Shown: piece after piece, positions 5,491-45,304 of the stretch
How the letters are laid out: each line of letters opens with the position of its first letter
Position numbering within the stretch: position 1 is the first letter of the stretch
Assembly: GCA_963922205.1 (NCBI GenBank)
Contig: CAWUHX010000227.1
Span: 248,001-312,000, forward strand
Reading direction: 5' to 3'
Length of the DNA stretch: 64,000 bases
Origin: Romanomermis culicivorax
Lineage: Eukaryota > Nematoda > Enoplea > Mermithida > Mermithidae
Notes under the pieces: generated by a model
Database searches by the model: none
Seen by the model: only the letters and a program-made list of their open reading frames with translations
What the model was told of the DNA's origin: nothing
Translations under genes and position numbers: made by a program

Positions 5491-5528
5491 TCAACTGAGG
5501 CTGTCTCTGCAACTGGATGCCTTGCTCC

Positions 5529-12134: not shown

Positions 12135-12911
12135 CACTGTTTATCCACATTTGCACTATAATGTGGAAAAAAATTTCGATGTCTTTCCACAAATGTGGAA
12201 GAAAACTTTGTCGTTTTCATAATTGAAAAGGTGCATTTTGGTGCATTTTAGGAGGTCCAAATCTCAAAATTTAATAATCTTTAATAACTTTAATAAACCT
12301 TAATAATCATTATTATTTATTACCGAGCTCAGGCGCGGCTTTTAGCATGTCTACCTTCACTTACCATTTAATCTTCAATAGTTTTCATCATCTTAAACGT
12401 ATTATTTCATGTTTAATGGGCAATTTTGTCTATTATATCCTTATTTAATGAAGATCCGCATTTTTCCCTTCGTAGATTTTTTGAGAAAGATCAACACGTC
12501 ATTTTTCTCAACTTATTGAAGCGTTTGTTCCTTTCTTAATGTAAATTCAATTCAAAAGCTTCATGGAAGTATTTCTGGAAAATTTCTACGCTTCTTACTC
12601 ATAGCTTTTCGGCCAAATTTATGAAAGGTTACAAACAGGTTTTAAAATTTTTCGAATGATAAATTTCTAGAAATTACGATTATATGATTTATGATCACAG
12701 AATTTAAATCTAATTTTCCAGATATATGATCAGAATGATTATCAGAATGCTTTAAATAAAAGGCTCAAAAACACTTAAATAAAGCGTTTTCGTTTATGAT
12801 CATTTTCAAGCAAAAAACGAAGATTTTAAGACGAAAAAAATTTTTTCCACATGTGGAAAAAATTTGACCCCTTTGACCTTTGTGGAAAAAAGTTCGTGAA
12901 AAAAAACAGTG
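12135..12911 (+). mobile_element. Non-autonomous hAT-like element, GTGGAAA end motif, shared core (copy 2)
   Basis: The left end is CACTGTTTATCCACATTTG and the right end AAAAAAAACAGTG, forming terminal inverted repeats of the CAGTG type. TGTGGAAA and TTTCCACA repeat several times just inside both ends. The middle (12225-12800) is a copy of the shared core. Flanks GAAGGAAA and GAAGGGAG match at six of eight bases, a possible decayed 8-bp target duplication. The family relation to 31574-32583, which has the same motif and core, is clear. No transposase is encoded. Confidence 0.8.
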
Positions 12912-13678
12912 GAAGGGAGGAAACCGACTCAGCGTTTTTTTTGTGCACGGACATTTGTGCCAATTGGCACAAGAGGCCAAAAAAATTTGTGCCAATGGCA
13001 CAAAAAATTTTTTTCTACAAGGAACATACTGAAAACTCCGGAAAAGTTTCAGGCCAAAAGTTTGATAAAAATATATATCATTTGAAGCTAATAACGGATT
13101 AATTTTTTTGTAAAAATCATGCCCTATTTTTGATCTCTAATTTATTCGTTCAAATCTTCTAAAATTTGTCCTTCACATTTATTCATTATTTCCTCATTCT
13201 CGACTAATTATATTTTGAATAGTAATTTTGTTCTTTTTCGACGGGTAATAGAATCTTTCATTCGTTCATTCATTCAACCTATTTTTCAGCAAACCACGAC
13301 AGTGAAATAAAAAAAAATTGCAAGAAAATAGTTCACGGCGACTTAAAAAGAAATGGAATGCTGAGAAAATTTGAATAACTCTAGAATTGTTCAGGAAGTT
13401 CAAATTAACTCAATTTTCGACTGCGAATATTTATATAATGTAAAGACTAGAGAAAATAAAGTTTAAAATAAAATTTAAAAAAATAAATTTAAAATAAAAA
13501 AAAAAAATAAAAATAAAAAAAAATAAAAAAATTAAATTTAAAATAAAAATAAAATAAAATTAAAATAAAGTTTTTTCTATTAGAATCAATCAAACACAAA
13601 AATTAAGGATTTCAGTTCTAAAACCGAATCCGACTGAATGAACAGAGAATATTCGGAATTTTTTTTCATTCATCGGTC

Positions 13679-14775
13679 CAGTGTTTTTTTTGCACGAGCT
13701 GTTTTGCACGGTGCAAAAAAGTCATTAGAAAAGTTTTGCACGACAAAAATTTTTTTGTACTATAAACAGGTTTTTATTTGTACATGACCCATTTGAACAT
13801 GTACAAACAGCAGCCAATATTTCATTTGTACAATTTGTACATAGCAAATATTGGTACCAATAAGTAACCTGTGTTATTCCACGTCATGGCCAAAAATCAT
13901 GACCAAAATCAAATCAGTGTAATTTTCAAATTTTATTTATAAACTACAAACATTGCAAAAAACTGAAATTTTCCAGTTTCAAGTCTAATTTACAAGCATT
14001 GTTAAACAAATTTTCTAGAAAACTGACCAATAGCATAATGAATTTGCATTAGATGATAAAGATGGTTAATTCCTCTATGATGACAAGTGAAAGCCCAAAA
14101 AAGATGTTTTTGTGTATTGACATTCGTCGACACAGGAGAATCAATTTTCCAAACATCAATTTCAAGAATTAGATCCAATTTTTGTGTTCAAGAGTCGTAA
14201 TTTTTAAAATTTTATTATTTGAAAAATTTTAAAACCAGTAATTTATTCGTTGAATCTCATGAACTTGGCCGAAAAGATATTAGTGGAAGAGTCGAAATTT
14301 CCGAAAAAACTACTTCTATGAAGATTCTGAATTGATTTTACGTTAAGAAAGGAATAATCGCTTCAAAAAGTTTAGACTTGACGTATTGATCTTTCTCAAA
14401 AAAATTTTTCAAGAAAAAACTGTGAATCTTCATTAAGTATCAAGATAATATTGAAGATTACCATTTAAAACATGAGATAATACGTTTGGGATGATGAAAA
14501 CTATTATATACATTAAATTATAGGTGAAGGTAGACATTCTGAAAGCCGCATCTGAGCTACGTAATACATATTATTGATCATTAAAGTTATTAAACATTAA
14601 AGTTAAAATTTTGAGATTCGGACCTACTAAAATGCACCAAAATGCACCTTTTCTATATCAAGACACCAAATTTTTCCCACATTTGATAAATATTTTTTTG
14701 CACGGTGCAAAAAAACCTGAAAAAAAAGTTTTGCACGAGCGGAAAAAGTTTTGCACAGTGCAAAAAAAAACACTG
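13679..14775 (-). mobile_element. Non-autonomous hAT-like element, GTGCAAA end motif, shared core (copy 3)
   Basis: The ends are CAGTGTTTTTTTTGCACG and GTGCAAAAAAAAACACTG. The flanks CATCGGTC (13671-13678 and 14776-14783) are an exact 8-bp target duplication. GTGCAAAA and TTTTGCAC are repeated inside each end. The interior (about 14000-14640) is the shared core in reverse orientation relative to copies 1, 2 and 5. No open frame suggests a transposase, so mobilisation would have been in trans. Confidence 0.92.
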
Positions 14776-14849
14776 CATCGGTCATCAACAGCCTGTAAAG
14801 TTTGCTGCAGCCTGCAACGACACTCTAATACAAAATACACTGTTCGAAG

Positions 14850-15640
14850 CAGGCTTTTTTTCGTCAAAAATTTACAGGCCAAATGGCTCCTAGACCTAAA
14901 TTTTAAGGAGCCAAACAGACATTTTTAGGGGCCATAAATAATCAATGCACACTTTTGATAAAAATTAATTCATTATATAATTCGTATAGTTTGATTGTAT
15001 TTAATCCAAATTTACTTGTATCACAAATAGGGCAAATTTTTTGAATTTGCTTTTAAAACGGAACTCATCAAAAAAGTTTATTTTCAGTCAGAACACGATA
15101 CGTTTATTCATTACGTTTCTTAGCAAAATCGCCAGTTTTATATCGCGTTTCTTTAGCCCTTATTTTGTAAGCACTTCCGAAATCAAAATTATTACAATTG
15201 CTGTGGCATTTCTGCAAACGCATCAAGACGTCCAAATGTTCAGCCTGATTTGATGATCGATGAAAAATCTAATTTTGCTATTTGATTTCTTGATCAAGTA
15301 AGACCTTACTGTTGTTTGCGACCGAGTTTTCGTCTTTAATCTGTTCACCAGAGAAAAACCACGCCCAACGCCAGCGTTTGTTGCATTGAAACACAGAATT
15401 ATCTCGGAAAAAACAGTTAAAAATAGTAGTAAATCGCTTATTGTTAAAGAGATCTTAAAAATAGAAACGCATTCATGTAAAGTTGCTTGATATATAATAT
15501 AATTATAGCAAACAACTAAAATTCGGTTAAACTTCAGCTGAATTTTTTGGAGCCAAATTGGCTCCTTGAAGTAAAATTTTAGGAGCCATTTTCGAACTTT
15601 TAGGAGCCCAGGCTCCTAAAATGACTAAAAAAAAAGCCTG
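14850..15640. mobile_element. Non-autonomous hAT-like element, GGAGCC end motif
   Basis: The ends are CAGGCTTTTTTTCGTC and GACTAAAAAAAAAGCCTG. The flanks GTTCGAAG (14842-14849 and 15641-15648) are an exact 8-bp duplication. GGAGCC and GGCTCC recur at both ends (14890-14935 and 15550-15620). The middle is AT-rich and unrelated to the shared core. The end layout is strikingly like that of 28124-29235, but with GGAGCC where that element has CAAGCC. Confidence 0.92.
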
Positions 15641-15898
15641 GTTCGAAGAGAAATCGCTCGCGTTCGAGTCTAATATACGAGTAGGAAATATTATATGCAT
15701 TGAATCGGCACGAAGCGCCGAAAATTTTTGGCATTTTCAACGCCTAAAACGTCTAAAAATCTAGAAAATTTAATGTTTGACCAGCCAAAAACTTTGTGCC
15801 AATTGGCACAAACGCTCAAAATTTTTTGTGTGTGCCATTCCAAAATTTTCTGTGCCAAAAACCATGTTTTGGCACAAAAAAAAAACACTGAACCGACC

Positions 15899-16873
15899 AT
15901 ACCTGTGAGACCTCGGGCGGGGGGGGGGGGGGGCACCGTTTTTTTTGCTCAAAGATTTTTTCCACATGAGAACCGGACCCAAAATTTTTTTCCTTATTTT
16001 CCAAAAATTTTCCGCATTTTTAAAAACGCTTATAATGTGGCTACGGATGCTTTTTGAGCATTTTAGGAGCATACCCAAGCATTTTGTTGTATTTGTAGTC
16101 AGAAACTTGCAAAAATGAGGAAAAAAATTGAGAAAATTCTGGTTATGTTAGTCAAAATGAGCTCATCAAGAATATATTGGTGTTCTATAGGAGCGGATGA
16201 AGCAAGTTAATGATAGAATTCTCATGAATTTATCCGCTATTAACATTTCTGTTATTCCAATTAGAATCATCTAATTTTATTTAGTTCTTGGTCCGGCGCG
16301 GGGCGCCGGAAAAATTTCGGATTTTCACTTTCTAAAACGCTGGAAAATGAAGCTTCATAACGTAGGGAAATAAATTAAAATCAGACTGATCAAGTGTAAT
16401 CTGCTCCCCATTCCGGCGCGAAGCGCCGGAAAAATTTTCGGGTTTTATATCCTAAAAACCTGAAAAATAAATCTCTCCAACAGAAAATTCGTGAACAAAA
16501 GTTTTAAAATCGCAGTCTAGAATGATGTCTTCAATTCCCAGTGTCAATAAACGCAAAACTTCAGATTGCAAACGTTTAAAAAATTCCAATCATCGAGAGA
16601 AAAAAATGAGAGAATTGATGAAAAATCTCTATTTTCGGCGACATAATTGACTGTAAACGATTAGAAAATGAAACGAGCTAACTTGATTGATAGAAACTGT
16701 TAAGCATTAATTAGTAAGTCGAAGTAGATATGCTAACGGCCGCGCCTGATAGAATATAGTTATAATTAAATTTTTGAGATTTTGACCTTTTAAAGTCCAT
16801 GAAGACGCATCTTTTCGGAGAGTTCCCCAAAATTTTTTCCACAATGAGAACCATACGTACCCAAAATTTTTGG
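15899..16873. other. Repeat-rich DNA with GCGCCGG hairpins; no gene
   Basis: The left edge (CATACCTGTGAGACCTC followed by a G-run at 15919-15932) is the end of a G-run MITE. A TTTTTTCCACATGAGAACC block follows at 15957. Two hairpins lie at about 16293-16309 and 16413-16429, the second with arms CCGGCGC/GCGCCGG and a GAA loop. From about 16640 to 16840 a reversed, strongly diverged piece of the shared core can be recognised (GTAGATATGCTAACGG, then TTTTGAGATTTTGACC). No coding exons are seen. Confidence 0.5.
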
Positions 16874-19800
16874 CAGGGGCTATGCAGCGCCCGGCGCTCT
16901 ATAACAGTATTCCATTATTTTTTTTATTCAGCGCCCGGCGCTGAATAACCAAGCATTATGATTTTTTTTATTCAGCGCCGGGCGCTGAATAACCAGTGGC
17001 ATGACACACGGTTATTCAGCGCCCGTCGACGATCTTAACTACAGTAATCGAGACTTAAATCATTATATGCTGAAAATACTAACCTAATCAGCGATATTAG
17101 TGAACGAAAGTCAAAAGTAATAGAGACCGCTCGCACCAGTGATTATACCTGTAAGAGATCCGACCCGTTGGGAGGATCCCAAGATTTGGGTGTGGGCATC
17201 GAAAAAACGCGAAAAATTTCGAAAATTTACCCAAAAAGCCACTTTTTTCCCAATTTTTTCAAGTGTGCGGGGGGGGGGTTGGGTACATACCTGTATTTGG
17301 GGGGTCGGGGGGGACTTGGCCAACCCTGCACCCAAAATCATTCCCCCTCCCCTGTTTGGAAAAAATATTTTCAAAAAAGTGTATGTTTTTTGGCCTTTTT
17401 GGAAAAAATTTCGACTTTTTCCTACCCCCCCCCCCCCCCAACTGGTCGGAGGTCTTACAGGTATGGTTGGGTATAGGGTTGACCAAGTTGAGGGTGGGGG
17501 TTCCGATGGGTATAGGGTTCGACCAAGTTGGGGGTGGAGGTCCCCCCCCCCCCAGTCCTCCCACAATTTACTGGTATGCCAATGATTCCTGAACTATTCT
17601 AGGAGTTGCCTATGGATTTCCGTATTCATGAAACTTTGACATGAGTGATTATAAGACGTAACAACATAATTCTCAAGGCTGAAGTTCAACGAAGAGGCTT
17701 AATTTGATAATTTAATTTTGTGGATTTTCATGTGTGAGCTTTGAATATTGTATGTCAAAATGAACTGAGATGACCATGTAGCAAATGAATAGGCATGGGC
17801 GATGTACTGATGTTTTCAATCAGCCAGATACTGCGGTCAACCAACTGGATAACAAAAAAAATGAGCTAGAAATGGGCAAAACAGTAAAAATCACATTTAT
17901 TTTGGATTGATGATAGACAACCGAAGATCAGAGATCTGGCCCGGCCCCCAACCAAAAATCTGGATTCTTCAACCAGCATGAACTTCTCTCATTGTCTAAC
18001 ACTGCGCATGACTCTAACATGAAAGAGCATGCTACCATAACAATCGCATATACTTGCAAAAACAATATGGGTTTATCTGTAGTCAGTCTATACAGAAATT
18101 CGGTTGGTTCTCAAATCCTCTCCGTCTTTGCCAGGCCAAATCAGGTTAGAAAACCGGCTGTAGTACATTTATTTCGAAGAAAATAGACAAAATACAATCA
18201 AAGTTAATTGTCGGGCTCACTTCAGATCAAGAGCTCCCAAGGTCAGATTAGCTAAATGTCCAATATAAATGCACCAGTTTTGACAAAACTAGTCGCCCAG
18301 TGATCAATTCTTAGGACTTCGGGTAGGGGTAATACCCCCTCGTACCCCTTCCTATGGGACAGTCTGGACACTTGTGAACAAAATAAAAATGAAATTATCA
18401 TGTTGAACATAATTCTTTTCTCTGTACAGTTAGCCAGTTTTCCAGTCAAACTGGCCCTGACTCAATTTTTGATCTGGGGCTACTTTCACAAGTCACAAGT
18501 ACGGTGGTTGAGTCGTACCTCTCACATGCTCAGTGGTGTCAAGCACAAATACATTTAGTCGAAATTAAAGTTTTATGGCGCCTAGTGCAGGAATATATGT
18601 TGTAATTCTTGGGATTGGAAAATCCGCTGTTTTTTCGAAATCATGCTTATTTGGGAAAAATGTTTAAAAAAGCTGAAAATGTTAATTATCGACGCACGAA
18701 AAACAATATTGGTGCGTTTTCTAACGTGAGCATCTGAAATTGGCCAACGAAGTGGGAAATAGTGAGTTGTTTTTCGAACATTGCTCTACACCTACTCTGG
18801 CTGTTAGTGCATGAATTGTGAAATTTCTATAGCTCATTGGCTTGGGTACATGAAAACAATTATTTATGTGACCATTGGGATTCTGCACAATAAAGTATCA
18901 CTGAACCGCTACATTTTGGTGCAAGCAAAACCTTTATAGAGGTGCCCTGAACTCTTCTAAAGGTTCAGTGGTACCTATAAATAGAAATAGGTGCAAGAGA
19001 AAACGCCATTCAATTAGTTCAGTTCATTATTATTTTCTGTGGTGCAGTGTGTGTCAGTTCTGTGGTGCAGAGTTTGGTACAGGTCAATTTTTATGCCACT
19101 GAATCAATAGAAAGGCTCAGATGCGTTTGGTACATCTAGCCCTTTGTCTGGTGCCGAGAACTAGTCCGTCTGGTAGTTGCCAGTTGAGCTATTTTCCACG
19201 TATATGATACTTTGACCATTTTTCCTAGTGGTTACTTCATGTGATTGTCAAGAATCTAATTTTTCCGTCATGTGAACAAAATATTCGCATTCGAGACATA
19301 CAAAACACAAAAAGCGAAAAAACTATAAGTAATCTGTTTCGTTGGTAATATATATGGAATAAAGTTAATCCTGAACCTGTTGAAAAAGAACTACTCTAGG
19401 AGTGTTCTGTGTATGTGAACAAGCAAGTTATCCTGAACTCTTGACCTTCTAATACAGTGCAAATAACACTGTTGAACTTCTAGGTTGCTGCTAGCAGAAC
19501 TTGATGAATAGAAAGATCGCCACCACTAGTAATGTGTGCTCTGTTAAATTTTTCCATGACTCGTTTCACGATTTTCAAGCTTCGCTGTACACCCACCGAA
19601 CGATAAAAATCGTATGCTTGATGAGAAACTGTTTTCGACTAGCCAGTTCTTTATTTCTAAGCAGATTGCAATTCGTGTTCAATCATTTTCGAGACTCCAG
19701 CAAAAGTCCAAAGACCTAATAGAGGTGAAGACCTTGCGAGTTATAGTCACAGTAGTAGAAACGTTATATCAAAGTCTGGCTTTTAGAAATAGACTGGCGT

Positions 19801-20244
19801 TGTATATATTGCAACGAAACTAATGAGGATTAGATTAAAATCATATTCCTTAACCACAAATCACTTGAAAAAATCAAATTGTAATTGTAAATAATTGTAA
19901 GCTGTCAAAATTCATTCTTAGCCGGATCGACTGCAAGTGACCAGTCGTAGTTTGATCGCAGCTCAGAGAGGTTTGCCCGAATCCAAAGCGTACGTACTTC
20001 GAATCAACGAATTTTGGATGATGGAACTGATATTTTGATGAAACATAAACTCTACGGGTGCAACGCGAGAAGTATATTGTAACATAATAGAACCGGGCGC
20101 TGAATAACCAACGTAATGATAAAATGTTATTCAGCGCCCGGCGCTGCATAAAAAAATTAACATGCTTGGTTATTCAGCGCCGGGCGCTGAATAAAAAAAA
20201 TTAAGACGAAAGGATATTCAGCGCCCGGCGCTGAATAACCACTG
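16874..20244. mobile_element. Element bounded by GGCGCTGAATAA palindromes
   Basis: The left end CAGGGGCTATGCAGCGCC and the reverse complement of the right end (CAGTGGTTATTCAGCGCC) pair as inverted repeats. Inside each end, three to four copies of a palindrome of the form TTATTCAGCGCC-GGCGCTGAATAA occur (16880-17030 and 20092-20240). The 3 kb interior has no recognisable protein. It holds a G-run MITE (17146-17464), a fragment of the repeat seen at 39626-39804 (about 18228-18366) and otherwise anonymous AT-rich DNA. Flanks do not give a clean 8-bp duplication. Placement in the hAT-like group rests on the ends and motif layout. Confidence 0.65.
17146..17464. mobile_element. G-run TA-MITE copy, composite
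   Basis: It begins TA-CCTGTAAGAGATCCGACCC and ends GGTCGGAGGTCTTACAGG-TA, the same termini as 21034-21280. An internal ACATACCTGTATTTGGGG at 17290 suggests one copy inserted into or abutting another. C- and G-runs of 8-16 bases lie inside both ends. All open frames over it, in several frames and both strands, are products of the runs. Confidence 0.75.
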
Positions 20245-20289
20245 CCAAAATTTTTTTCCTCATTTCGAAATTTTTTTCCTCAAAAGACC

Positions 20290-20760
20290 CCATTTGAGGA
20301 AAAAAAAACGGTGGGGGGGGGTAGAAAAAAGTCGAAATTTTTCCCAAAAAAGGCCAAAAAGTACAGGTATGGAACCGACTTGTAAAAAAATTCCAAAAAA
20401 TTTTTCAACGAGATGTACCAGTAGTCACAGTAAAAAGACTTCCAGCTCAATTTATTATATGACACGAAACACCTGACGGAAACTGTCGACACATGTCGAT
20501 CCTGCTCTGTCGTTAGATTCCATTCCCAGAATTGAATTCTCGACCGCGATTAATTTCTCTGAATCTTCGAGCAGGTTGAACTTTATTTTTGCTTTATGGT
20601 TGAAGTTATTACTGTCATTTTCCAAAATCGATATTCTCAATTTCGTCCACAAGACCAGGTTTCTTTCTGCACACAGCAACCAAATTTCGGGCTGTGCTTG
20701 CAAGTGCAGTGCGACCAAATTTTTTCTGCCAAGTTGCACAGTGCAACTTGAGGCCTGACT
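20290..20760. repeat. Repeat fragments: G-run MITE piece and repeat F pieces
   Basis: At 20310-20375 a GTAGAAAAAAGTCGAAATTT block and ACAGGTATGG end identify a truncated G-run MITE. Next to it are TTTTTTTCCTCA and TGAGGAAAAAAA copies (20255-20310). Around 20650-20756 a piece bounded by CAGGTTTCTTTCTGCACA and GCAACTTGAGGCCTG resembles the right end of repeat F (41090-41135). No gene is seen. Confidence 0.45.
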
Positions 20761-20769
20761 GCTCTTTTG

Positions 20770-27500: not shown

Positions 27501-30500
27501 GTAAAATTTCTTCCCTCGGCCGATCCCTACTTTTTTCCCAACTTTTCTTAATTTTTTCGAGTTTGGGGGGGGGTTGGGTGCAGGGTTGGCCAAGTTGGGG
27601 AGTCCCCTCCCCACTCCACCCTCCCAATTACAGCGATGCCCCCTGACTTATTCGAACCTCATACACAAATGTCGGAACACACCCCCAACTCGGAAAAATT
27701 TAGAAAAAAGCTTTTGTTAGTCTCTTTTTAGGAAAATTTTCGTTTTTTCAACTTGTTTTTGGGATTTTTGGGGATCCCCAAACCAAAATTTTGGGTTTAC
27801 CTCCCTCCAACCAGTCGGACTTCTTACAGGTATAGTAAAAATTCACTTTTCATAAACTTGGTTTTTTGCGGGTTATTGTATAAGGCATCATAAAATTTGA
27901 ATCGAGAGCACTGTTGTAGACCGGGTGGCCGACTACCGGCTGGCCGACTGCACCGGGCGGCGGACTGTAGCACATGGCCGACTAGTTTATAATGTATAAG
28001 TCGAATCTTATGTAGAATGTTTTTGCACGAAATGTGAATAGAATGTTGCTAAATAAGGGTTTCAATGTACAAGATATCATCTAAAATGCAAGAGCAACGC
28101 AAAAATATGCTGATTAAGTAAAACAGGGTTTTTTTTTTGACCTACGAGTCACAAGCCAAGTGGCTTGTTGACCTAAAATTTTACAAGCCATTCCAAATTT
28201 TTACAAGCTAATTTTATAATATCAGTATACGTGAATAAATTCCAATGCTAGGTTATTTTTTTAAAGAAATGTATATATTGAGCATCACGGCAATTGATCA
28301 AAAAAGAGATGTCATTCAACATTATTCAATAACATTTTAGAGCTGTTAATTCATTAAAATTCAGGAAACATTTGGAATTTTTGAGTTTGATCGAAGTCTA
28401 ATATCTACAATCATTGTGGAACAAATTTTCCAGCAAACTATCCAAGAACATAATGACTTTGAATTACATGAGAAATCGACGGTTAAGTCCTCTATGATGA
28501 CAAGTGAGAGCCCAAAAAAGCTATTAATCTTTCCTGCCTGAAACACTGGAAAAATTTTTTGGGTATTGACATTCTGCGATGCTGGAAAATCAATTTTCCA
28601 AACACTTATTTGAAGAATTAGATTTGAATTTTCTGTTCAAAAGTCGTAATTTCTAGAATTTTATGTTTGAAAAATTTTAAAACCATTAATTTATTCACAC
28701 ACTCTCATGAACTTGGCCGAAAAGATATAGGTAAGAAGAGTAGAAATTTTCGAAAACTACTTCCATGAAGCTTTTGGATTGATTTTACATTAAGAAAGGA
28801 ATAATCGCTTCAAAAAGTTTACAGACTTGACGTGATCTTTCTCAAAAAATGTGTCAAGGGAAAATGTGAATCTTCATTAAATATCAAGATGAAATATTGA
28901 AGATTACCAATCAAAACATGAGATAATACGTTTAAGATGATTAAAACTATTTAAGATTAAATGATAAGTGAAGGTAGACATGTTAGGAGCAGCGGCTGAG
29001 CTAGGAAATAAATAATAATACTTATTTAAGTTATAACCGGCGCGAAGCGCCGGAAAATTTTGAGATTATGACCTCCTAAAATGCACCAAAATGCATCTTT
29101 TCTGTATCCGATATGATCAAACACATGACTCAAAAAATTCTGACAAGCCATTTTGGCTTGTTGGACTAAAATTCTACAAGCCATTTTGTCAGTCCAACAA
29201 GCCATGGCTTGTAAAATGCTAAAAAAAAAACTATGAAGTAAAAGCACACAAGGATACCTATTTGAATTCAAAAGTTTTATTATGCAAGAAATTTTTCCTC
29301 TCGTATCCGTTCACTGTGTTGAGTATATTTGTTATAAAAATGAATGAAAATGATTTTGGCGCTGCAGAATATCTGTTGACAGTTCATGGAAATTCGACGT
29401 TGCTCAAGTGCGAAGGTCGCACAAATCTCAATCATTTTTGGCTTTTCAAAAAGAATAAAACTAAACGAGGATTGACGGTTCATTTCATAGAAATTATTTT
29501 CATTCAGGGTCGTACTTGGCATTTATATACAAGAAAATCTTAATTTTGGAGTACTTATTCCCAATTTTCATGAACAGAAAATGCAAAAAATTCACCAATA
29601 TTCTTTTCAAATGGAAGCACCCTGCTGATATTCCACAAATGCGAAGGCCCTATGGATTTCACCACAGCTAAACTCATATATCGAAAAAAGTAATGAGCTT
29701 AAGTCATTCCAGAGTACGATCTTTAGATAATTTACTCAAGTAAAGACGAAATTCCGCTGTTGTTGTTCTATCTTTCCTGAAAATTCTATTTTTGCATTTT
29801 ATTCATAGTTTTTTTGCTACAAAAATATTAGAAAAAAATCGATAGAATCAATCAATCTAGGCCTTTATAATGAATTAAAAAATTATGAACTGCATATTTC
29901 TGCACTTGATTAGCATATTTTTGCGTCGCTCTTGCATTTTTTGATGATCAACATTTTATTCACATTTCGTGCGAAAACGTTTTACGTAATGTTCGACTTA
30001 CATATAAACTCTTTCAAATTGAATTCGGTCACCCGATACAGTCGGCCATCCGCTACAGTCGGCCAGGCGGCACAGTCGGTCACCCGCTACACAATCGAGA
30101 GCACTGCCAAACGCTTCAAATTCACCTGCCAGTTGTAGACTAGAACGAATTAAAAAGCGAAAAGTGTTTCAACTTACTCAAAAAAGTATCATTGTCTCCC
30201 GAGTAAAACGATATAATTTAACAGGCGAGCATCTGAAACAGGACTTCACTTTCGGAATGAATTTGCTTGATTATAAGCGATTTGTTTGCATTAATCACAG
30301 GGTGCCGAAAATTTCCTGATTTTTGTTTAGAATGTCATCAGGCTTGTAGTGCAGTGCTTAGCTCCAGTTCAACTAAAAAATGATTAATTATAAATCACTG
30401 AAAATCGACATTAGCTCACATGCAATTAGAATATTGTGTTCTAAAATCTGTAAGGTGTCATGTGAAGTTTGTTTATGAGTACGACCTTGATCAGGTACAG

Positions 30501-33500
30501 TTTTCTTGAAGAAAAGCATACTTTTAAAAAACTAACTAATATAGCTCCGATAAAAAATAAACCCAAAAATGCCCGGATTAAAGGTTAAAAAGCATATTAC
30601 CGGTAGGGATCTGGCTGAATTTTTGGATCCGAATCTGATCCAGAACCGCTGAACCATTTTTTTAGATCCGGATCCGCTGTTCTCAAAGATTAAGATTCGA
30701 CTCATAATCAGTTCTTCACTCATTCCAGTTTGCATTAAGTTTCAAAAAAAAATTCAAGTCAACGGTAGGTAGCTAAATTTTATCTGACAAGCCGCAATTT
30801 TTCAATAGTATCGTCTAGGGTGTTTTGTAGCACGAGTCAGCATAGATAGCACGGTTGACAAATGATACTTTGTTAGTCTCAAATTAATGTGCGAGCTTGT
30901 CGATTCTAGTAACCTGCTTTTACTGCATTGTTGACTCATCAAATCATGCTTGATGTCGGTACTTTAAAAAAATGAGGCTCCCATCTGGTTCTAATTAAAT
31001 CAGCTCATTCTTACATTATGCACTTGTTTAGTTGACGGACTAGTAAATATCAAGTATAGTCAGTTTTCAGTAATACTTCTTAGGAATCGCTAAATTCGCA
31101 TTCTGTTTGGATAAAAGTTTAAATATTTTAATTTATCTGGAACAGGGTTCTCTTTTCAACATTAGTGCCATTAGCAGAGCCGCTAACTGTCCTTAATTTG
31201 TATTACTTTTTCTTGACACGACTAAAATTATTAGCACAGGCCCAACTTTGTTATAACTGTGCTAAAAAAGAAAACCCTGTTCTGGAACTGCGCTTCAACT
31301 TCAATATTCTCCATTGATTTTTTCACAAAACGTATGTACTCACTATTACTGATTTGCATAAACCTCAGCATATGTCAAAACAGCTATTTTCAAACTACTT
31401 GAGTAGTGTCTAGTAGGGATCGGCCGAGGGCTCGGCCTCGGCCGAGGATTGGTACCCTCGGCCACCCTCGGCCTCGGCCGAGGGTGTCGATCAAAAATGG
31501 CCGAGGCCGAGGATTATTTGCAACTCTAAAGCAAGTAGGATATTTTTGATGTAAAATGTTTACTGCATCAAAGCACTGTTTTTTTCCACATTTGCACTAT
31601 AATGTGGAAAAAAAATCTGGAATGTGGAAAAAATTTTTGAGGTCTTTCCACAAGTGTGAAAGAAAAATTTGGGGTTTTCATATTGAAAAGATGCATTTTG
31701 GTGCATTTTAGGAGGTCCAAATCCCTAAATTAACTTTAATAATCATCATTATTCATTAAGTAGCTCAGGCGCGGCTTTTATCATGTCTACTTTCATTTAT
31801 CACTTAATCTATAATAGTTTTCATCATCTTAAAGGTAGTATCTCATGTTTTAATTGGTTATCTTCAACATTTTATCATAATATTTAATGAAGATTCGCAT
31901 TTTTTCTTTTTGAGAAAGATGAATACACGTCAAGTCTCTAGGATTTATGATGTGATTATTTCTTTGCTAACGTAAAATCAATTCAAAAGCTTCTTGGAAA
32001 TATCTTTCGGAAAGTTATACTTTTCTTACTCATATATTTTCGACCAAGTTCATGAGAGTTTACAAATAAATTACAGATTTTAAAATTTTTCAAGTAAAAT
32101 TCTAGAAATTACGACTCTTGAACACTAAATTGGAATCTAATTCTTGAAATAATGTTCGGAAAAATGCTTTTCCAGCATCCCAGAATGTCAATATACCCAA
32201 AAAAGTTTCCGGCGCTTTGCGCCGGAAAGTACCATCTTTTTTGGGCTTTCACTTGTCATCATAGAGGACTTGACCATTGATTTCTTGTGTAATTCAAGTC
32301 AATTGTGCTCTTGGATAGTTTGCTAGAAAAATTGTTCAACAACGCTTGTAGATTAGGCTTTTAGGTCGAACATTTCAATTTTTTCTCCAATTTTAATGAA
32401 TTAACTTCTCTAAATACACCGGAAAACTTGAAAAAGCTCAAAAACAGTGCGATAAAGCGTCTGTGAGCATTTTTAAGCCAAAAAACGGATTTTAAGACGA
32501 AAAAAAATTTTTTCCACATGTGGAAAAAAAAATTTGACCCCTTTCCACATTTGTGGAAAAAAGTTCGTGGAAAAAAAACAGTGCATCAAAGTGACGGGTT
32601 GACTCCATAAATTCTACAAAATTTGCATAGAAGACATCTTTGCGTTAATTTACCTATTTAGTGTTACACTTTTACAATAAATTTTTTACAATAAATTTTT
32701 TTATGTTTTGAATTACTTGATGAAGATCATAAAGGCAAGAGTAAAGAAGTCTCTTATTAGTATTACCAGTGACCAGTGTATTAATATAATATCATGTTAA
32801 AAAAATCCTCGGCTCGGCCGAGGCCGAGGCTTTTTATTTTACCCTCGGCCGATCCCTAGTGTCTAGGAGGTTAGACCCGAAGCTGTTTCAGATTCGAGTC
32901 CCAGTCGTTAACTTGGCAAAAGTGACGAAGAGAATAATGATATTGACGAAGTTGTTATTCGTGAAAACGACGATTTTCAATTTTTCACCACAATTTAGTG
33001 ATATCTTTTAGCCAACTTTCTTCTAAAACATTATTAGAAAATTTCTCCGTTTCAGTCATTAGCACGCGTGCTAACGTTAAAATTTCTTTTCATCTTCTCG
33101 ATATATATTTCGATTTCTTGTCAATTCTACAAATCAGTATATATTAACTAGCAGCAGACAATTCATAAAATACTTCGTTCACTAGAGATAAAACGGATCC
33201 AAGATTTTCAATCTTCCGGATCCGGGTAATCAACTTGCCTCCATCCGGATCCGGGTAATTGGAAATGAGTTTCACGGATCCGGATCTGGGTAATCAGGTC
33301 CACTACATACGGATCCGGACCGGATCCGGGTAGTAATAATCTATTATACAGCTGCTGTGATTATGCAGGTATTTTAATTCATGCGTCTTTAAATGGTTCT
33401 GTTTAAGTGTTTATCAGATGCATAATATCTGCTGTGTAAAGCTATACAAATTCAGGAATGTAAATTACTGTAGTAAATCTTAATCTTAATCTTATGAAAT

Positions 33501-36500
33501 CTTAAAATTAAGATTCTTCAAATTTTGATTTTGATCAAATACCAAGATGAAGATCATAGATTAAAATAGACTAAACAATAAAGAGAGACATTTCAAGTTG
33601 TGAAAGAATCGGCTAAAACAACAACGTACGAACCGCACTTGAAAATCTGTATGATATGAAAATTGACTTCTGCCCTGTGCACAAAACATCATAAAAAATT
33701 TGTGCATGAGCTCCAAAACTGTGCTCAGTGCACAGAAAACCATGATTGAAACTGTTGTAAAACTTCTCTTTTTGAAATACAATTTACCAAAAATCAACTT
33801 TAAATCAATCAAATAAATGTTTGTTACTTTACCTTGTAACGTTACCTTAGTGTCAAAATATTAGTATCAGTTGTGTCTAAACTGCATTTGGAATTATCCG
33901 GATCCGAGTACTTGAGATGGGTTCTTCCGGACCCGGGTAATTGAAAATGCTTCTTCCGGATGCGGATCCTGAAAACTTCCGGGAAATCCGGATCCGGGTA
34001 CTCGTTTCATCTCTACTACCTAGTAATCAAGAAAAGTAGCTATCATAAATTCTCTATTAAAATTGAAAACGAATCTCAAATTATATAATATTGTTTCCAT
34101 TTCTCAATCACTCTATCGTTTCAAGATTTCCGAATCTGAGATCAATGTTCACGTGTAAAGTTAAATAAATGAACCGATTCCTCTTCTGTCTAAATTACCG
34201 AAAAAGTGTAAATTCATAGGACATAATTAGAATAATTGAACATAATGCATGATTATTCATAAGCATGCTATCATACAAGATTCAGATTCGGTCGGATCTG
34301 TCATTCAGAATCCGGATCCGCTGAACCAAATTTTTTTGGATCCGGACTCGCTGTCGTCAAAAAAGTGAATCCGACCCATTCCTGATTATCAGTACAGCAA
34401 AAACTCGAAATCGAGAAAAAATTTCGCACTTTCAAACCAGAAAAGCATGACTAAATTTCACGGAGTGACATGTGCTAATTGTGATAATTTTTTGTAGAAC
34501 AAAAGGTGCCGGAAAAATTTTGACTTCGCTTGGTCGTAAAGTGAGGGTCGATCCTGCCAACGTTGTAAGAGATCAGGGCGGAAAAATGTTGCGAAAAGAT
34601 TCTGAATCCCGAAAATCTAGAAGCCCACCGCCGCCCCCTGATCGTTACAGAGACAGTTACTCCTCGCGTCCCAGGGTAAGCTTTGCATTTTCAAATAACG
34701 TGTGTAGTTTCATATTTTCTCTCCTTTTTTTCGTTCTCGTGATGTATGACGTTCCTTTCAGGACATTATATTCGACTCAATAGAGAATTTTAATGACCAG
34801 TTTTTAATTACCACCAGCAGCCCTTAATTAGCCGAAATCGATTTTACAGATCTGAATGTCCAAAAATTTTTCCATCTTCTTTTTCGTGGTTCAATTTAGC
34901 GAAATTGATAAAATCGGGCCTTACATATCAACGCTTGTAATTGGCGAACCACTTATACATCATATTCGCCTGTTTACGATTTAAAGCAGTTATTGGTTAA
35001 TCGATTTTATCGATAAATCGTCCTATTAGGCAATGTAGAGCATATTCTTGCGATCATTTCTATTTGAGGCATTTATTTTCATGTTTACGAATTGTAATTC
35101 CTATTGATTCGTAAGTCTCAGAGTACATACGTCTCTTCTTTCCTGCTAAAAAATATGGCTTGAAGATCATTCTTAGTCTTCGGAACTTATTTAAGTGCTA
35201 AATTTAATACAAATTATGATTTTATTCACATCTCTGCCTTTGATGGAAATATATATGATATCGAGATTATATAAGAACGTATTAGGTAGTACAACAGCAA
35301 AATCAAAAAAAGATCAAAGTTTACGTTATAACACGAAATCAGTATTGCGTGCGATCATACAATGTTCGTTATAGTCTAGGCTAGCGTCAGGTTTTCGACT
35401 TTCTCCAAAATTAATCACTTCGTCGTTTGGCGTTGTGTTAATTCTTATTCTTTGAAAAATTTCGTATTTGTATCTTTATAAAATAACTTCGGTTCTCAAA
35501 AATTGCGATACTCTAAAAATTGTCGATTTGGAGTTACGTACTAGTCGATGACTAGAATGAAGTTATGAATCCAATTAATGAGACTGATTGCATATATTCT
35601 CCAAATTTTAGATCATCGATCATCGTACGAGACCAGCTGGACGTTCGCCGCCGCCGTATCGCGGAGGCGGTCGTGGCGGATACGACATGTCGCCGCCGCC
35701 CGAATTCGAGCATCCCCGACCGACTTGGGATTATAAAGAGGGCGATCCGTTCGAAGATTCGTTCGCCAGTCGGACTCTTTTTGTCGGAAATTTGGAGATC
35801 GACATCGGGTACATAATTTTCTTTTGTGACAATAGAAAATTTATATGATTTAGCTTAAAAAACGTACCGTAATTTTATCTTTGATTGCGGGTATCTCTTT
35901 CTTAAAATTTTGTATATTTGATCACCCTGTCCGCGGCGCCGTTGCTTCACTTCCCAGACTTCAGAGTTCCGTTGCATGTATATGATTTCAGCCATATGAT
36001 TGTAAAATCTTTCAGATACTCGATTAGCCATGGGATCCATAGCTTCTAGAAGGTTTTTATAGCGCTATTACCTGATTCCGTTTACAATCGAGAGGAATCT
36101 GATACAGCTTTCAAATATACAATTGTTCCTCTTTGCGTTTTCTTTAATCTTTGAACTTATATCCTAATAATTATTTTTAGCTTCAGCGGGAAGCTTAAAA
36201 TGATAAAAATGATGTATGTGAGTTTTTAGCTGATTACGATCCGATAATCTCGTGAAAGAATGAATAGGAAAATCACCGTTTGAAGTTGTTCTAAGATAGA
36301 GAGGTTGTTTTTGATTCTTTAAGCTTAAAAATCAGTTCAATATTTTTGTTTTCCATTAAATATACATATTTTTCCATTTTAGCATTAGCGAAATTCGTCA
36401 TTTTTTCGAAAAATACGGCACTGTTGAAGAAATCGACATAAAAACACCACAAAACGGAATTACGGCCTACGCTTTCGTTCGCTTTTCGGACATTTTGTCC

Positions 36501-39500
36501 GCCAGAGAGGCCAGAAAACGTTGCAGCGGTGAATATTTACGAGATAACAGGTACGTACAGTTACCGCTTAGTGAGGGAATTCCTCCAGGTCTAAATTCCG
36601 ACATAATACATTTGAGTGTATTGGATAGCCAATGACAACTTTAATAATGCTACACTAAGAATTTTCTCTCGTGGGCCTGTTTTACACTGGAATCCATATG
36701 AATGTAAACTATGAAAACGCTTCATATATTCACAGCAATCACTCTATCGAGGTGTAAATTCAGTCTTTCATCATTTGAATACTTTTTATATTAGGTCATT
36801 TTGTTAATTAGTTACTTGTCCTTATCTTTTGTTATTCCTCGGTCAAGTATAAGCCGAATTTCTATTGTTTTGCACATTTATGCAAATTTCCGTGTAAAAA
36901 AGATCAGCGAAGAAAACGTTTAATGTAACATTACCATCGAATGCACTGCTATTTACACTTTGAAATTTTTCATCATTTTAAAGATTTATTTTCTTTTGCA
37001 ATTTGCGTTTTAGCTTCCAAGTTGTGCCAAATTTTTCCAAATTTTAGGTAAAAAATAATAGATTTTATGAATTGACGTCATGTCTATTGTTCAGATGCAT
37101 CATCGGTTGGGGCAAACCAATCGTCACGCGTCGCCTTTGGGTCGGTGGTTTCACTTCCGACATTTCTCTATCGTGGCTGGAAAAAGAATTCGATCGTTTC
37201 GGACCGGTCGAAAAAATCGATTTCAATCGCGGCGAAACGCATGCTTTCGTTTTGTACGCCGATCAACGGGCCGCCACCGAAGCGTTCAGAAAATTGCGGG
37301 GATTGCGTATGAAAAATGGCGTGTTGGAAAATGTGTTCCACGTGAGTGAAAATTTGAATTTTGAATTTAAAAATAGCATTTTTGTGCTAATTTTCGTGTA
37401 AATGAAGTTTTTACTTTTTTAAGGTCGATTACGCCGATGCTAGCATGTACGAACGATCGACTTTTGACGATCGTCCACGTCGCCGTTCGAATTCCCGATC
37501 TCGTTCGCCGGCGGATCGCAATCGCAGCAGTAAACGTCGACGATCGAACAGCGGTTCGCGATCGCCGCCGCCTCGGAAACGTAACGCCAGTTCGGAGTAT
37601 GTTAAATTGGAATTTAAATTTTATTTATTTTCCGTGAATTTGTAGTTTTGTATTTGAAAATACATTCAATTGACTGATTTTGCATTCTCCCCAAAATTTC
37701 GTAAAATTTTCACTTTTTTGTGCCAAATTTTTTCTTTGGACTGTTTTTCTTCAAAAATTTTCCTTCCCAATTTTAAACCTCGTTTTCTTGACAGTCGCGA
37801 CAGATCGCCCAGCAAATCTGGACGTCGCAACAAAGATTCGTCGTCGAAAAAAGATAACGGCCGCTCCAAACGCCGACGATCTTCGTCGTCAGCATCACCG
37901 CACCGTCGTCGAAACGGCGTTGAAAATAACGGCAGCGGAAAGGGTGATAATGTATACTCTTCGCCGGCGACGCAACGTCAAACGGGTTTGGTGGCCGCCG
38001 CGGAATTTGCCGCCGATTCGTTGCAAGACTTGCACGAAGTAAAATTTTTATTGCTAAGTTCAAGAAGACTAACATTTAAAGTTTGAGGGTGTGATTTTCG
38101 GTCGATCGAAATTTTTAGCTTAAAACGCTTCAAGTTAGGTCACCAATCAACAGGTCTCGTCGAGATCCATTCAAAAATAGTATTCGAAACGTTGTATCTT
38201 TATTTTTGACGCATTTGTGAGCATTCAAAGTATGGATCGACCTCAAAAATCACTCATTTGTTCAAAATCAGAGAATTTTGAAACGTAATTGAATATGTTA
38301 GAATTTTAATTGTGTAAGATTTAAAATTTGATAAACGTAATGTGACAACCTTATCTCTTTTGATAAAAGTGTGCGGTAAAAAGCATTTCCCACCATTTTC
38401 CAGATCAGAAGCCCAATCTGGACGGGCGTTTTAGTATTGAAAAAATCGGCCTACCCCCTCCAATTGTTCAAAATGGCCGGCGACGACGATTTAGTGGACG
38501 CCTATTTACGTAACGAACGCGCCGAAAGCGTTCAATTGAATATTACGCAACGGTATAAGTTGGACCAACCTAGAACGGGCGAAATTTTGCGCGTTTCGGC
38601 TTCGGCGATGGAACATTGCGCTTATTTGTTGGCTGTTCCCAATCCGAACGTTCGTCAAGATTTAGTAAGAATTTTACGTTTTATGAACAACAGATTCAAA
38701 AAAATTCACATTGATTGGAATAGCGAATTTCTTATACAAACATAGCTTTTAAGCTGCAATTTACACTAAAAATTAGAATCGGTGAACTGGCTGTATCGTC
38801 GAAATCTATGATTACACATTTCTGATCATTACTGTCGTATGACTCTTAAAAAGATTCCATCAGATATGTCAAATTTTTAGAATTCTAGTCTAGTGAGAAA
38901 TTTTAACTTAACGAGAACTTGACTTGTAACTTTTAATATCTATCTATTGTGAATGGTCAAGAAAAACATGAGTTTAAAAACAAGAATAAAATAGGGAATA
39001 AAAAAAAGAATAAAAAAAAATTAATAATACACTAACAAGGGTGAGAACAGAAAAGTAGATGAACAACGATGACCAAAATGAAGATTGTAAGAAAAAAATC
39101 AAAAGCTGAGAAAGTAAAAAATGACTAATACATAGAAAACGGAGAATCATCCACCACAATTTCGGAACTTTGAAGTTCATGAGTATTAGCACACCCTAGT
39201 TTCTGAATTTAGAATCCAAACAAAACATAATATTCCACTGCGCTTGAACAGTCTTGATTTCAGTAATCGTTAGTTTGCTAAGCCGAGTTTTTTCTATACG
39301 AGGCAAACATTTTTGGCTCTGAATAAATTTATTTGGTATTTTTTGTATACAAGGAGATTTCTCCGGCATTTTCTACTCCCAAGTTCAATTCTTTTGAGGC
39401 TATAAAACGGAAAAATTCTATATTCAACCGTAAAAACAACATGAACTGGAAGCTTTTTAGCGTTCTGCACGATATATACCTGTAAGAACGAGCTGCATTG

Positions 39501-41778: not shown

Positions 41779-42739
41779 CAGGTGAAAAAATTTGATTCAA
41801 CGTATTCATTGATGACATGCACGTGATGAAGCTTTTCTGGAATTTTTTGGATAAAGATTTCAACCACCCATAAATGCGTCAAAAATGAAGATACAGTATT
41901 ATAAATCATGTTTCTGGATAGATCTCAACGAGATCTATTGACTGACATCTTATTCGTTGAGTTTTGGAGAAGAAAGTTTATGATCCCCTCGAAAAGTCTG
42001 TATTCGGGCGATGTAGACGATCGACCACGCCGATATGTGGTCAGACCTCATTGAGAAAATTCTTTCCATGACATTTTTTTGTTCCAAACGCAGCTAATCT
42101 AGCACTTATCTATAGATTTTGTCAACATCTATCCAAAAATATTATGAATTTTCCATTTTTAGTTAATTTTGACCCATGATACCCGTTACGTGCATGTGTA
42201 AAATTCTGAAATAATGTTTCGTGCATTTTGCCACTTTTCGAAAAGAATTACTTTTGAAATTTTGTTGTCACTTATATGATAATTGTTTTGTGTCGTGAAT
42301 ATAACTAGTACGTAAACTGTAAACGTGCTTTAATATTTGTGAAATGGAAAATGGGTACCGTCGTCATCGTCGTCTGCACAAAGCCTTTACTGTAGAAATT
42401 AAGGTTAGCGTAATATGTTGACAAATTTCTGTGCACATATTGCAGAAAATTGTTTCGCCCCTATTCGGCGGAACTCAATACAGCGACTCTCGAAACAGCT
42501 AACTCTCATTCCAGCGAAGTCTCAACACAGCCATTCTCAAAAGAGTGAGGTCTTAAAACAGCGATTCTCAAAACTGTGAAGTCTCAGAACAAATTCCCAA
42601 AATAGCGGATTTTCAAGTTATGTTTAGAATAGAGATTGGACGGGGTAGAGATTTTAGCGCATGGCCTATCTGGTTGGCCCGAAAAAGTCGCGCATGGCCT
42701 ATCTGGTTGGCCCGAAAAAAGAAAAAAAAAGAAATCGCC
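41779..42739 (+). other. 3' flank of the RBM15-type gene, intergenic
   Basis: The 3'UTR must begin here, but no canonical AATAAA was confirmed close to the stop codon. A run of short imperfect repeats (AACAGCGATTCTC, AACAGCTAACTCTC, AACAGCCATTCTC) lies at 42478-42600, and a direct repeat GCGCATGGCCTATCTGGTTG at 42656-42708. No gene is seen. Confidence 0.5.
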
Positions 42740-42925
42740 AAACAGCCCCCTTGAACTTCTCCTAGACAGCTTTTTTGATGATTTTTGTGCGTATTTTGTA
42801 TGAAAAACAAACTTGCGAACTTCTTTCGTTTTTTGCTCGCCCGCCCACCCTTCTACCCCCTGGATAAAAAGTCCAAGGACCCTCTCCCCTCGGAAATTCT
42901 TGCCGTGCGTGTCTGATGCTGGTTA
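42740..42925 (+). repeat. Dispersed repeat D, copy 2
   Basis: It has the same block order as 41230-41440 and ends ATTCTTGCCGTGCGTGTCTG. A pyrimidine-rich strand (42950-43190) follows, giving spurious Phe/Leu/Ser frames. Confidence 0.75.
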
Positions 42926-43426
42926 TCATACATTTTGGAACGAGTCGACAGATTTCTGACTTGTGTTTTCACATTACAGCTTTTTATTCCGGTTTGTTTA
43001 TTATTAACATATTTACATGCATTTTTTTGTTTCTTTTTTCCTTTATTGAGTTACTATCTTTTATTTTTGCTTCTGTTTTTGCATTCTTTAATTTGTGCTT
43101 CTGTTATATGTTTTTACCTAGTTTTTATTACATTATTCTAGTTTTCGTTTCTTCATTATTTGTTTTGTGTTCTGTCTTTTCAGTTTAATTATTTTATGAA
43201 TTTCATTTATTTCATTAATCAATTTTTTGAAATTAAGCTCCATGCGAAACATTTTCAAGATGGAATCCTCATAATTTTTTGTTTTGTTTTCTCAAGCGTC
43301 TTCGCTGCTTAAATTTTGACCCGTCAGAAATATTGGTCACAACCAACAACATATTTGCATTATTCTTTAGACATCAAGAGATGCTGATTCTGACAAAAGT
43401 TATCAAACGCTGGCCCAATTTGGGAC

Positions 43427-45304
43427 TAGTGATGGACCGATGGCCAAAAATTTGCCATCGGCCGATGCCGATGCATCGGCCAGGGTCACCGATGGCATCG
43501 GCCGATGGCCGATTGCCGATGCATCGGCTGTAACATGTACAAAATGCAACCTGAAGTTGTTACACTCTAATAAATTTAAAATTATTATGAATTATTCACA
43601 AAGTTTTACTGATATTTTCAACATTCAATAATTAACAACATTTCATTCATCTAATTTGTCATCAACAACGGCATCTGTTGTACTACCTTCACTTTGATTG
43701 CTGAGTTCACTAGAAGCTTCTTCAACTTCAGCTTGTTTTTCCAGTTTGCACTATTGGATCCAATCTCAGCAATAAACGGGATCTTTTTCCACTTCTAACA
43801 TCTTTTGCTTTTTAAAATGATCATTCACTAGCTACTGACCCAATTGGAGCTGATAATAATTTCATGGAAAGCTAAAGAAATTTTTTTCATAATGAAACTT
43901 TTCTTCAACTGCACACTATTTTGACTCACATTAGCTAATTCTGGTTTTGTTGCAGCATTTTACTTCCATTATTCTAGTAATTTATTCCAAAACAATGGCT
44001 TTTGCTTGCTAAATTGTTGACATTGCATTTTTTTCGGGCTACAGCTCATTTTCAGATAAACTTGCAATGCCCAAATAGTGCCTGAAATTGGTCAGTTTTG
44101 TGTAAATGCTTGAATTATTTACATTAGTATTAATTGTGGCTTACTGAGAAAGTTTGGAGAATGAGTTTGAAGATTCATTCAAATTTTTGAACCATATTTT
44201 TAGAAAAGCGTTGATTTTGTTATTTTTGATCGACAACCATTCTAGCCAAAGCTATAGTCGTTTTTTCTTGACGTGCTTCTAAATAATGAAAGTGAAAAGT
44301 AAGTAGTATTTTAGATTTCACGATGTTTTGATAAACAATATATTATATAGAAATGAAAATTGGTGAGCATACTGACCTAACCCTTGACAATTTTTCGAGT
44401 GAAAAATTTACACTAAGGGCTTTATGTAAACAATTTTGACAACGATACTGATTTGTGTCACTTTTCTATTCGGAAGCATTTTATAAAAAACAGACTTTAG
44501 TTCAGCTTTGTCTTCTGCTTGAGGATCACAGAGAGCCTAAATTATTTAATTTTGATTTGTATGATCAATATGTGTTATATTTCAAATTTCAATCCATCCT
44601 TTTCAAATCCAGGATCTAGTAAGATGCCAAAGCATGAAGTCTATTGTCTTCAATGGGTTTAAAGTGGGCTCGATTATCATTTCTATAAAAATATTGATTC
44701 ATTTTCCCCGACAATTCCTCCTTTAATGAACCTTATCCAGGAAAGTTGAAATTGTGGATTGAGTGGCGTAAAGTTCTTACGATTCTTTAATTTATGTTTT
44801 TCAAAAAATTTAGGCACAAAATCTACCTTACGTTTCTTCAGCTATTTCTTCCAAAATACAGGCGTTTCTAGATTCATAGATTTTTACAGTTTCTGCAAAA
44901 GATTTTAACAAATTGACAAGCTGCAAAATTATAATTATCTAAGGTGTGGATACATTATACATGTATTAAAGTATATTCTTACCGCCGCAGCTAAAATATC
45001 CCATTCATAGCTTGTCAAATTCTTGTTATCTAGTTCATCAATGGCAACACAGGGCAAATATGCTAGACATTAAAACAACCATTTTCACAAAAAAATAATG
45101 TATTTAGTACTAAAGTAAGTGTAAAATATGTATGTGAACAATCTGTTTTTTAAGCATATGCACCTGCATTCATTGTAACAAAAAGTTGCCAAACAATCGG
45201 CCATCGGCCGATTATTTGCCAAAACATCGGCCGATGGCCGATGCCAGAAAAACGCAACAATCGGCCGATGCATCGGCCGATGCCGATGCATCAGTCCATC
45301 ACTA
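43427..45304 (-). mobile_element. Decayed autonomous-type hAT element, CATCGGCC end motif
   Basis: The left end is TAGTGATGGACCGATGGCC and the right end GATGCATCAGTCCATCACTA. Flanks TTTGGGAC (43419-43426 and 45305-45312) are an exact 8-bp duplication. ATCGGCCGATG and GCATCGGCC clusters fill both ends (43440-43530 and 45195-45295). The 1.65 kb interior contains minus-strand transposase remnants, including an intron. It lies between the converging RBM15-type and TAF13 genes. Confidence 0.94.
43643..45072 (-). pseudogene. Broken hAT transposase, C-terminal half
   Basis: Reading from the right: a segment LPCVAIDELDNK ... LTSYEWDILAAA ends at a GT donor (44983/44982). After a 62-bp intron the exon 44920-44832 reads LVNLLKSFAETVKIYESRN and ends at another GT. 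Further on, HFKPIEDNRLHALAS and, one frame over, LDPGFEKDG match the ALATLLDPRFK block of hAT transposases, with a frameshift between them. EALCDPQAEDKAEL follows, and an acidic tail ends at 43643. The N-terminal BED finger and first catalytic region are absent, so the gene is dead. Confidence 0.75.

Follow-up and report, generated by a model that had tools for sequence, protein, structure and literature searches.

The elements described here lie in a 64,000-nucleotide stretch of Romanomermis culicivorax DNA (contig CAWUHX010000227.1, positions 248,001 to 312,000; hereafter the window) and elsewhere in that genome, and they bear arrays of a short motif, or tag, just inside their ends. In these elements, a single tag prevails at both ends; tags differ between hAT transposase lineages, and one non-autonomous interior is found behind several tags. 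As judged from alignments, recoding has reached nearly all aligned sites in two pairs of families, whose motif words are one or two bases apart. Coordinated replacement of the tag is at least two processes, namely recoding in place and enclosure by new ends, the latter in one GTGCAAA lineage. Such jointly changed tag copies suggest that elements can change which transposase moves them. The elements are probably families of cut-and-paste transposons, mostly non-autonomous, of which the TAG-type families belong to hAT and the T-tail families are hAT-like; the motif would be the tag of the transposase, and its changes would come from recoding or enclosure.

Coherence of end motifs

Twelve elements of the window had been named in an earlier sequence-only reading, which attributed to each its own motif at both ends and to most of them 8-bp target-site duplications (TSDs). 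The core of the claimed motif was counted in each terminal 150 bp and compared with 500 dinucleotide shuffles per end (for 12135, 16874, and 33183, the analyst chose where the right end lies). The core is enriched at both ends of all 12 elements, and none of the 500 shuffles of any end equalled the observed count. Cores of the 10 other motifs are present in the ends of two of the 12 elements, as a single GTGCAA in each GTGGAAA element. Coherent arrays still contain single foreign or degenerate sites, such as the degenerate sites in 14850, and the claim that every copy within an element has the same motif does not hold absolutely. TSDs are indeed present in most cases: seven are perfect (13679, 14850, 24368, 28124, 31414, 31574, and 43427), two have one mismatch (12930 and 27270), and none was found when looked for in 16874 and 33183. 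Element 12135 had no TSD as first delimited; with its end shifted to 12911, a degraded pair is seen (GAAGGAAA/GAAGGGAG, two mismatches).

Two kinds of tips are represented. The TAG-type elements in the window are 24368, 31414, 43427, and the left end at 33183, with tips such as TAGGGCTGTTTC. The T-tail elements are 12135, 12930, 13679, 14850, 27270, 28124, and 31574, with tips that start with CA and contain a run of T in the first dozen bases. The consensus of hAT TSDs has T at position 2 and A at position 7. One or both of these bases are found in 11 of the 12 perfect TSDs of T-tail elements, and 16 of the 24 positions match, compared with a frequency of 0.32 assumed by the analyst (p = 0.0005). 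This apparent preference fits hAT without proving it. The description of the elements as hAT-like is borne out for the TAG type by hAT transposase loci, and for the T-tail type it rests on TSD and tip.

A blind test, in which the commonest 6-mer or 6-mers of one end were sought in the other (a pass being at most 10 of 200 shuffles scoring as high), was passed by 19 of 24 T-tail elements, including two with doubtful ends (L042, with three TSD mismatches, and L046, with two). Among the misses, 92 and 83 shuffles scored as high for L043 and L016e, for both of which the word picked was CCCAAA, and 12, 17, and 16 did so for L047, L048, and L028b, respectively.

Coherence also extends to the genome (359 Mb searched), among the places listed for each pattern. 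For the A-arm motif pair (1539 matches, control 0), 96 of the 100 listed places are coherent (73 GTGG and 23 GGGG) and four are mixed; this coherence is partly family identity, because the GTGG and GGGG forms of the A arm also differ in central bases. For the B-arm pattern TTTTCCHCAAATGDGGAAAGGGRTCAAA, which has an identical spacer (1054 matches, control 0), 98 of the 100 listed places are coherent, and both exceptions involve GAGG/CCTC. Pairing of the two arms across 0.6-1.1 kb, based on all 100 listed A places and 69 of the 100 listed B places (contigs 1-9), gave 34 elements, 33 of which have the same motif at both ends (22 GTGG/GTGG and 11 GGGG/GGGG) and one of which has a GAGG site; GTGG/GGGG crosses number zero. 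For the CAAGCC/GGAGCC pattern (1067 matches, control 0), 99 of the 100 listed places are coherent (67 CAAGCC and 32 GGAGCC) and one has CGAGCC; the genome-wide forms are TGGCTTGTTGACCTAAAATTTTACAAGCCA and TGGCTCCTAGACCTAAAATTTTAGGAGCCA, with small variants. The family specificity of the motifs, identical at both ends, therefore holds genome-wide among the listed places. An origin of the motifs as simple low-complexity sequence is ruled out by the end shuffles together with genome controls of 0 or 1 match.

Recoding, enclosure, and a shared interior

GTGGAAA and GGGGAAA elements can be aligned from tip to tip. In a consensus comparison of seven GTGG and three GGGG copies, chosen for having both ends found, the variable base has switched at eight of nine aligned motif sites, from T to G or, on the opposite strand, from A to C, and the ninth site coincides with a deletion; elsewhere, 13 of 676 positions show such a change (p = 1.6e-12, with sites treated as independent). 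Of the eight switched sites, six match the new word exactly and in register, one has CGGGAA instead, and one is displaced by a single base. The sites of the two groups are collinear and not tandem, the spacers are kept, and a spacer between recoded words can be identical.

Elements 14850 and 28124, in which GGAGCC and CAAGCC had been reported to replace each other within a similar layout, likewise have real homology between their ends. Each has five exact sites in arm A; in arm B, 14850 has two exact and two degenerate sites and 28124 has three and one. With the motifs cut out, the spacers of this pair aligned with one of 500 shuffles being as good in each arm, and those of the GTGG/GGGG pair with zero of 500 in both arms. 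Six control comparisons were made with other elements, of which five gave 41-428 of 500 shuffles and the sixth (28124 arm A versus 27270) was also unusual, at 13 of 500. Gene conversion alone, which had been offered as a cause, does not account for recoding in place, because it would need a pre-existing donor that had the same spacers and the recoded motifs.

Elements 12135, 13679, 28124, and 31574 have homologous interiors; a blastn match to this shared interior was not found in the interior of 14850. A 22-bp word of the interior occurs at 8972 places in the genome at up to three mismatches (reversed control, 1). The same interior stands beside at least four end types. At 20 places taken in listed order on contig 1, with end types assigned by eye, the ends are GTGGAAA at eight, GGGGAAA at four, GTGCAAA at four, and CAAGCC at three, and one place (L039) has no clear end. 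The TSD pair of the element itself was seen at nine of these places, that of an outer element at two more, and none at the remaining nine. Consensus interiors of the four end classes are 0.875-0.921 identical (0.92 for GTGG versus GGGG) and have the same place and orientation, and the arms of GTGCAAA, CAAGCC, and GTGGAAA elements show no visible alignment with each other. The elements resemble miniature inverted-repeat transposable elements (MITEs) in being mostly 0.8-1.3 kb long, high in copy number, and bounded by terminal inverted repeats (TIRs) and TSDs, with putatively non-coding interiors.

Enclosure left a different trace. Three GTGCAAA elements (L027e, L047, and L048) contain a buried GTGGAAA B-end about 91-162 bp inside their present end, with alignment scores of 56-73 versus shuffle maxima of 32-37. 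At the opposite end, the innermost GTGGAAA site is weakly recognisable in the GTGCAAA consensus (42 versus 37) and in 13679 (40 versus 27). Flanks are shared among L027e, L029, L047, and L048 (for L029, only one flank was aligned), indicating that the four come from one insertion; a target preference of GTGCAAA elements for GTTTATAC was rejected on this ground. In L027, that insertion sits inside a TAGTGATCGTAC-ended element, and the composite then multiplied. Over 1577 bp, L037 and L046 share 94% identity; both consist of a CAAGCC element inside a TAGAGCTTCACAC element. Both L027:1448-4627 and L046 are composites of a T-tail element within a TAG-type element that multiplied together. These co-amplified nests, taken with the buried end, indicate that enclosure happens in this genome and is a possible route to new ends. 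The coordinated replacement proposed in the earlier reading is thus seen as recoding in two family pairs, but it is not a single process.

Transposases and competing explanations

The hAT dimerisation domain PF05699 (Dimer_Tnp_hAT) has at least 150 hits over the cut-off in the genome. Forty-one loci were read from the 150 listed hits, following their rank but passing over a few near-duplicates and some others, and with L069 added; the motif count used the 33 loci with a recognised TAG-type downstream end, L027 being excluded. The lineage motifs counted were GGATCC, GATATC, CCCGAA/GGGTAC, GAAACC, GGAACC, and CTCGAA. The own motif is in the majority in the last 204 bp of 32 of the 33 loci, L054 being a tie, with 178 own and 33 foreign hits, in a count for which the analyst set the motif labels from the same ends (L049 was reset to none and L067 was labelled by hand). 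A tree of the 41 C-terminal domains requires nine label changes, with a minimum of eight and a shuffled mean of 19.4, and none of 200 shuffles was as low; near-copies inflate both this result and the own-motif counts. The end of the CTCGAA transposase locus L065 is that of the window element 24368. A lineage-specific motif at transposase loci agrees with the motif being the site of the transposase, and the earlier proposal that it is a recognition tag is well supported for the TAG type; for the T-tail type, it would hold by analogy.

Perfect TSDs with TAG-type TIRs surround the transposase hits in L009, L010, L012, L013, L017, L020, L025, L027, and others, and the same scan did not find such an element in eight of 20 loci (e.g., L016, L018, L019, and L021-L024). 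The zf-BED domain is over the cut-off in two families (E = 1.2e-13 and 2.5e-4), both of which share GGATCC, and a BED finger was not located in the other families read. In the TAGGGATGGGCC family (L009-L017, L021, L028, L057, L058, and L064), each GGATCC-tagged 3' end counted has exactly one GATATC, at 14 of 14 loci, as a fixed odd site. The search for a T-tail transposase yielded a hAT with DUF4371 and motif GGCCGCAA instead. L069 (C77:1206070-1210370), a hAT with DUF4371, has an open frame of 864 codons, a perfect TSD (AAGAGGTT), and tips CAGAGCCGTGCC/CAGGGCCGTGCC, and both its ends contain GGCCGCAA words. Other PF05699 hits in the genome score almost the same, which suggests a young family.

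The families bear on how a transposase and its recognition sites can shift specificity in step without passing through an inactive stage. Under the preferred reading, the tag would be read by the transposase, and with several sites acting together, partial recoding need not abolish movement. With a transposase lineage of shifted specificity at hand, each recoded site would add some binding; copies that gained matching sites would have moved more, so that both ends would become recoded in parallel. In addition, an element may become enclosed by the ends of another family and be carried along while its old ends decay inside. A more tentative extension, about which doubt slightly outweighs confidence, is that one non-autonomous lineage repeatedly changed owner. 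The same interior would then have passed between transposases through recoding in place or wrapping in new ends, and the genome would hold a fossil series of specificity shifts (GAGGAAA, GGGGAAA, GTGGAAA; CAAGCC, GGAGCC) that is readable base by base. Families that are homologous and set apart chiefly by the recoded motif form before-and-after pairs, with about 1000 or more matches each, and they make the order of changes and the binding preferences of BED domains directly testable. They also suggest that a non-autonomous element, by switching tags, can persist after its transposase is gone.

In addition to the analyst-set labels, the near-copies, and the unusual sixth control, several points weigh against this reading. 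Among 10 T-tail elements with TSDs in the 257 kb scanned, no T-tail transposase was found, and a 2.9-kb T-tail candidate contained just nested insertions, as far as it was readable. GGATCC is common to two transposase groups (two changes on the tree, one of them forced by well-supported branches), which means that a new transposase group need not bring a new motif. The buried B-end was sought in 13679 and not found (score 21, shuffle maximum 30), and the three copies that contain it descend from one insertion. In Hermes, subterminal repeats of the left end are transposase sites, yet passages of the same source state that the BED domains leave right-end repeats unbound in the structure and that further binding within the ends is unlikely to be important (PMC10368747); these right-end passages speak against a simple additive model and make the parallel incomplete. 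Finally, the arm spacers of GTGG and GGGG elements (0.68 and 0.81) are less alike than their interiors (0.92), which implies either fast-evolving ends or also an exchange of end modules.

Such an exchange, in which template switching or ectopic recombination transfers whole end modules from family to family and shuffles interiors without selected site-by-site recoding, is the strongest competing explanation, although an unlikely one. It would fit not only the divergent spacers but also the arms of GTGCAAA, CAAGCC, and GTGGAAA elements that lack visible mutual alignment, the old end buried in some GTGCAAA elements, and the co-amplified nests in two cases. However, GTGG and GGGG elements are homologous throughout their arms, the motif being recoded, and so are CAAGCC and GGAGCC elements; an exchange of ends shifts this recoding back in time without producing it. 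It is improbable that the motifs are instead targets of another protein, either element-encoded or from the host (an anti-silencing factor similar to VANC of VANDAL elements, or a host repressor), with which the motif drifts. VANC proteins are described as binding arrays of short motifs, which vary from one VANDAL family to another (PMC5735166), but the arrays here lie about 20-220 bp from both tips, like the subterminal sites of Hermes. Least probable of all is ordinary divergence of unrelated families with different subterminal repeats and a common insert as the shared interior, which may hold among TAG-type families, where different motifs go with distant transposases, but which is contradicted by the T-tail alignments, with two family pairs homologous along their arms and the motif changed, and by an interior that keeps its position and orientation across four end classes.

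Window features and known systems

The elements of the window are listed in the table. Near 34374, the right side of 33183 is similar to the end of a GGATCC family other than that of its left TAGAGATAAAAC end, and 33183-34385 may be two neighbours or a chimera of two hAT families that share GGATCC. The window also contains a TFIID-18kDa (TAF13) frame at 46171-46671, for which the top match among named records is from Romanomermis culicivorax (85% identity over 65% of the query), followed by Trichuris and Trichinella. At 1192-7856 lies a retroelement whose two long frames on the minus strand (1432 and 775 codons) were read as pol-like and gag-like. Elsewhere in the genome, L024:1240-1680 is an element with tips CATACATGTAAC/CATACATGTAAT, an 8-bp TSD, and C or G tracts; these tips are unlike those of hAT.

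Table. Elements of the window and the interior used as genome query (window coordinates)
Feature	Position	Strand	Target-site duplication or remark
T-tail element, GTGGAAA, shared interior	12135..12911		Degraded TSD, 2 of 8 mismatched
T-tail element, GTGCCAA, two nested elements inside	12930..15890		TSD AACCGACT/AACCGACC
T-tail element, GTGCAAA, shared interior, nested in 12930-15890	13679..14775	-	TSD CATCGGTC
T-tail element, GGAGCC, ends homologous to those of 28124, nested in 12930-15890	14850..15640	-	TSD GTTCGAAG
Two inverted arrays of GGCGCTGAATAA palindromes, 3.2 kb apart; may not be a single element	16874..20263		No TSD found
TAG-type hAT non-autonomous element, CTCGAA; same end as transposase locus L065	24368..25782		TSD GTTCATAG
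Short T-tail element, motif GTGCGGAA	27270..27445		TSD with 1 mismatch
T-tail element, CAAGCC, shared interior	28124..29235	-	TSD AAGTAAAA
TAG-type element, motif CCTCGGCC, encloses 31574-32583	31414..32858		TSD GTGTCTAG
T-tail element, GTGGAAA, reference of the shared-interior group	31574..32583	+	TSD CATCAAAG
Shared interior, genome query	31662..32420	+	40 scored of 4524 first-look candidates; 42 matches listed
GGATCCGG arrays; left end of TAGAGATAAAAC type, right end like TAGGGATGGGCC family (analyst's reading)	33183..34385		No common TSD
TAG-type element, motif CATCGGCC	43427..45304		TSD TTTGGGAC

Among known systems, Ac/Ds is a hAT element with subterminal repeats as recognition sites. 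The elements described here are like Hermes in their 8-bp TSD, short TIR, and several short motif copies that lie, in either orientation, no further than about 200 bp from both tips, and the TAG-type elements also share with it the C-terminal hAT dimerisation domain, as well as a BED finger in two families, as far as the Hermes passages describe these features (PMC10368747). Unlike what those passages describe, one genome here holds pairs of families in which the motif is recoded in place at nearly all copies of both ends and the spacers, as well as the GTGG/GGGG interior, are kept (PMC10368747). In the literature covered, with subscription sources mostly outside its scope, no report of in-place recoding of all subterminal sites was recognised, and the passages on Galileo offer no close parallel to recoding (PMC4168063).

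The coral CMITE families resemble the present ones in being non-autonomous, with a conserved interior and differing ends, and their authors propose cross-mobilisation (PMC2872659). CMITEs are described as piggyBac-like, about 100 bp long, with a TTAA target and 14-bp TIRs of CC[C/T]T type, and the relevant passages describe no motif arrays; the elements here are about 1 kb long, have 8-bp TSDs and tips of CACTG/CAGTG type, and differ at their ends by recoded arrays (PMC2872659). The VANDAL/VANC system of Arabidopsis likewise has short non-coding motif repeats that differ between related families, and these motifs are proposed to coevolve with an element-encoded DNA-binding protein (PMC5735166). 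According to the passages on VANDAL, however, its motifs spread via the formation of tandem repeats, whereas the sites in Romanomermis are fixed, non-tandem, located at both ends about 0.9 kb apart, and substituted in place (PMC5735166).

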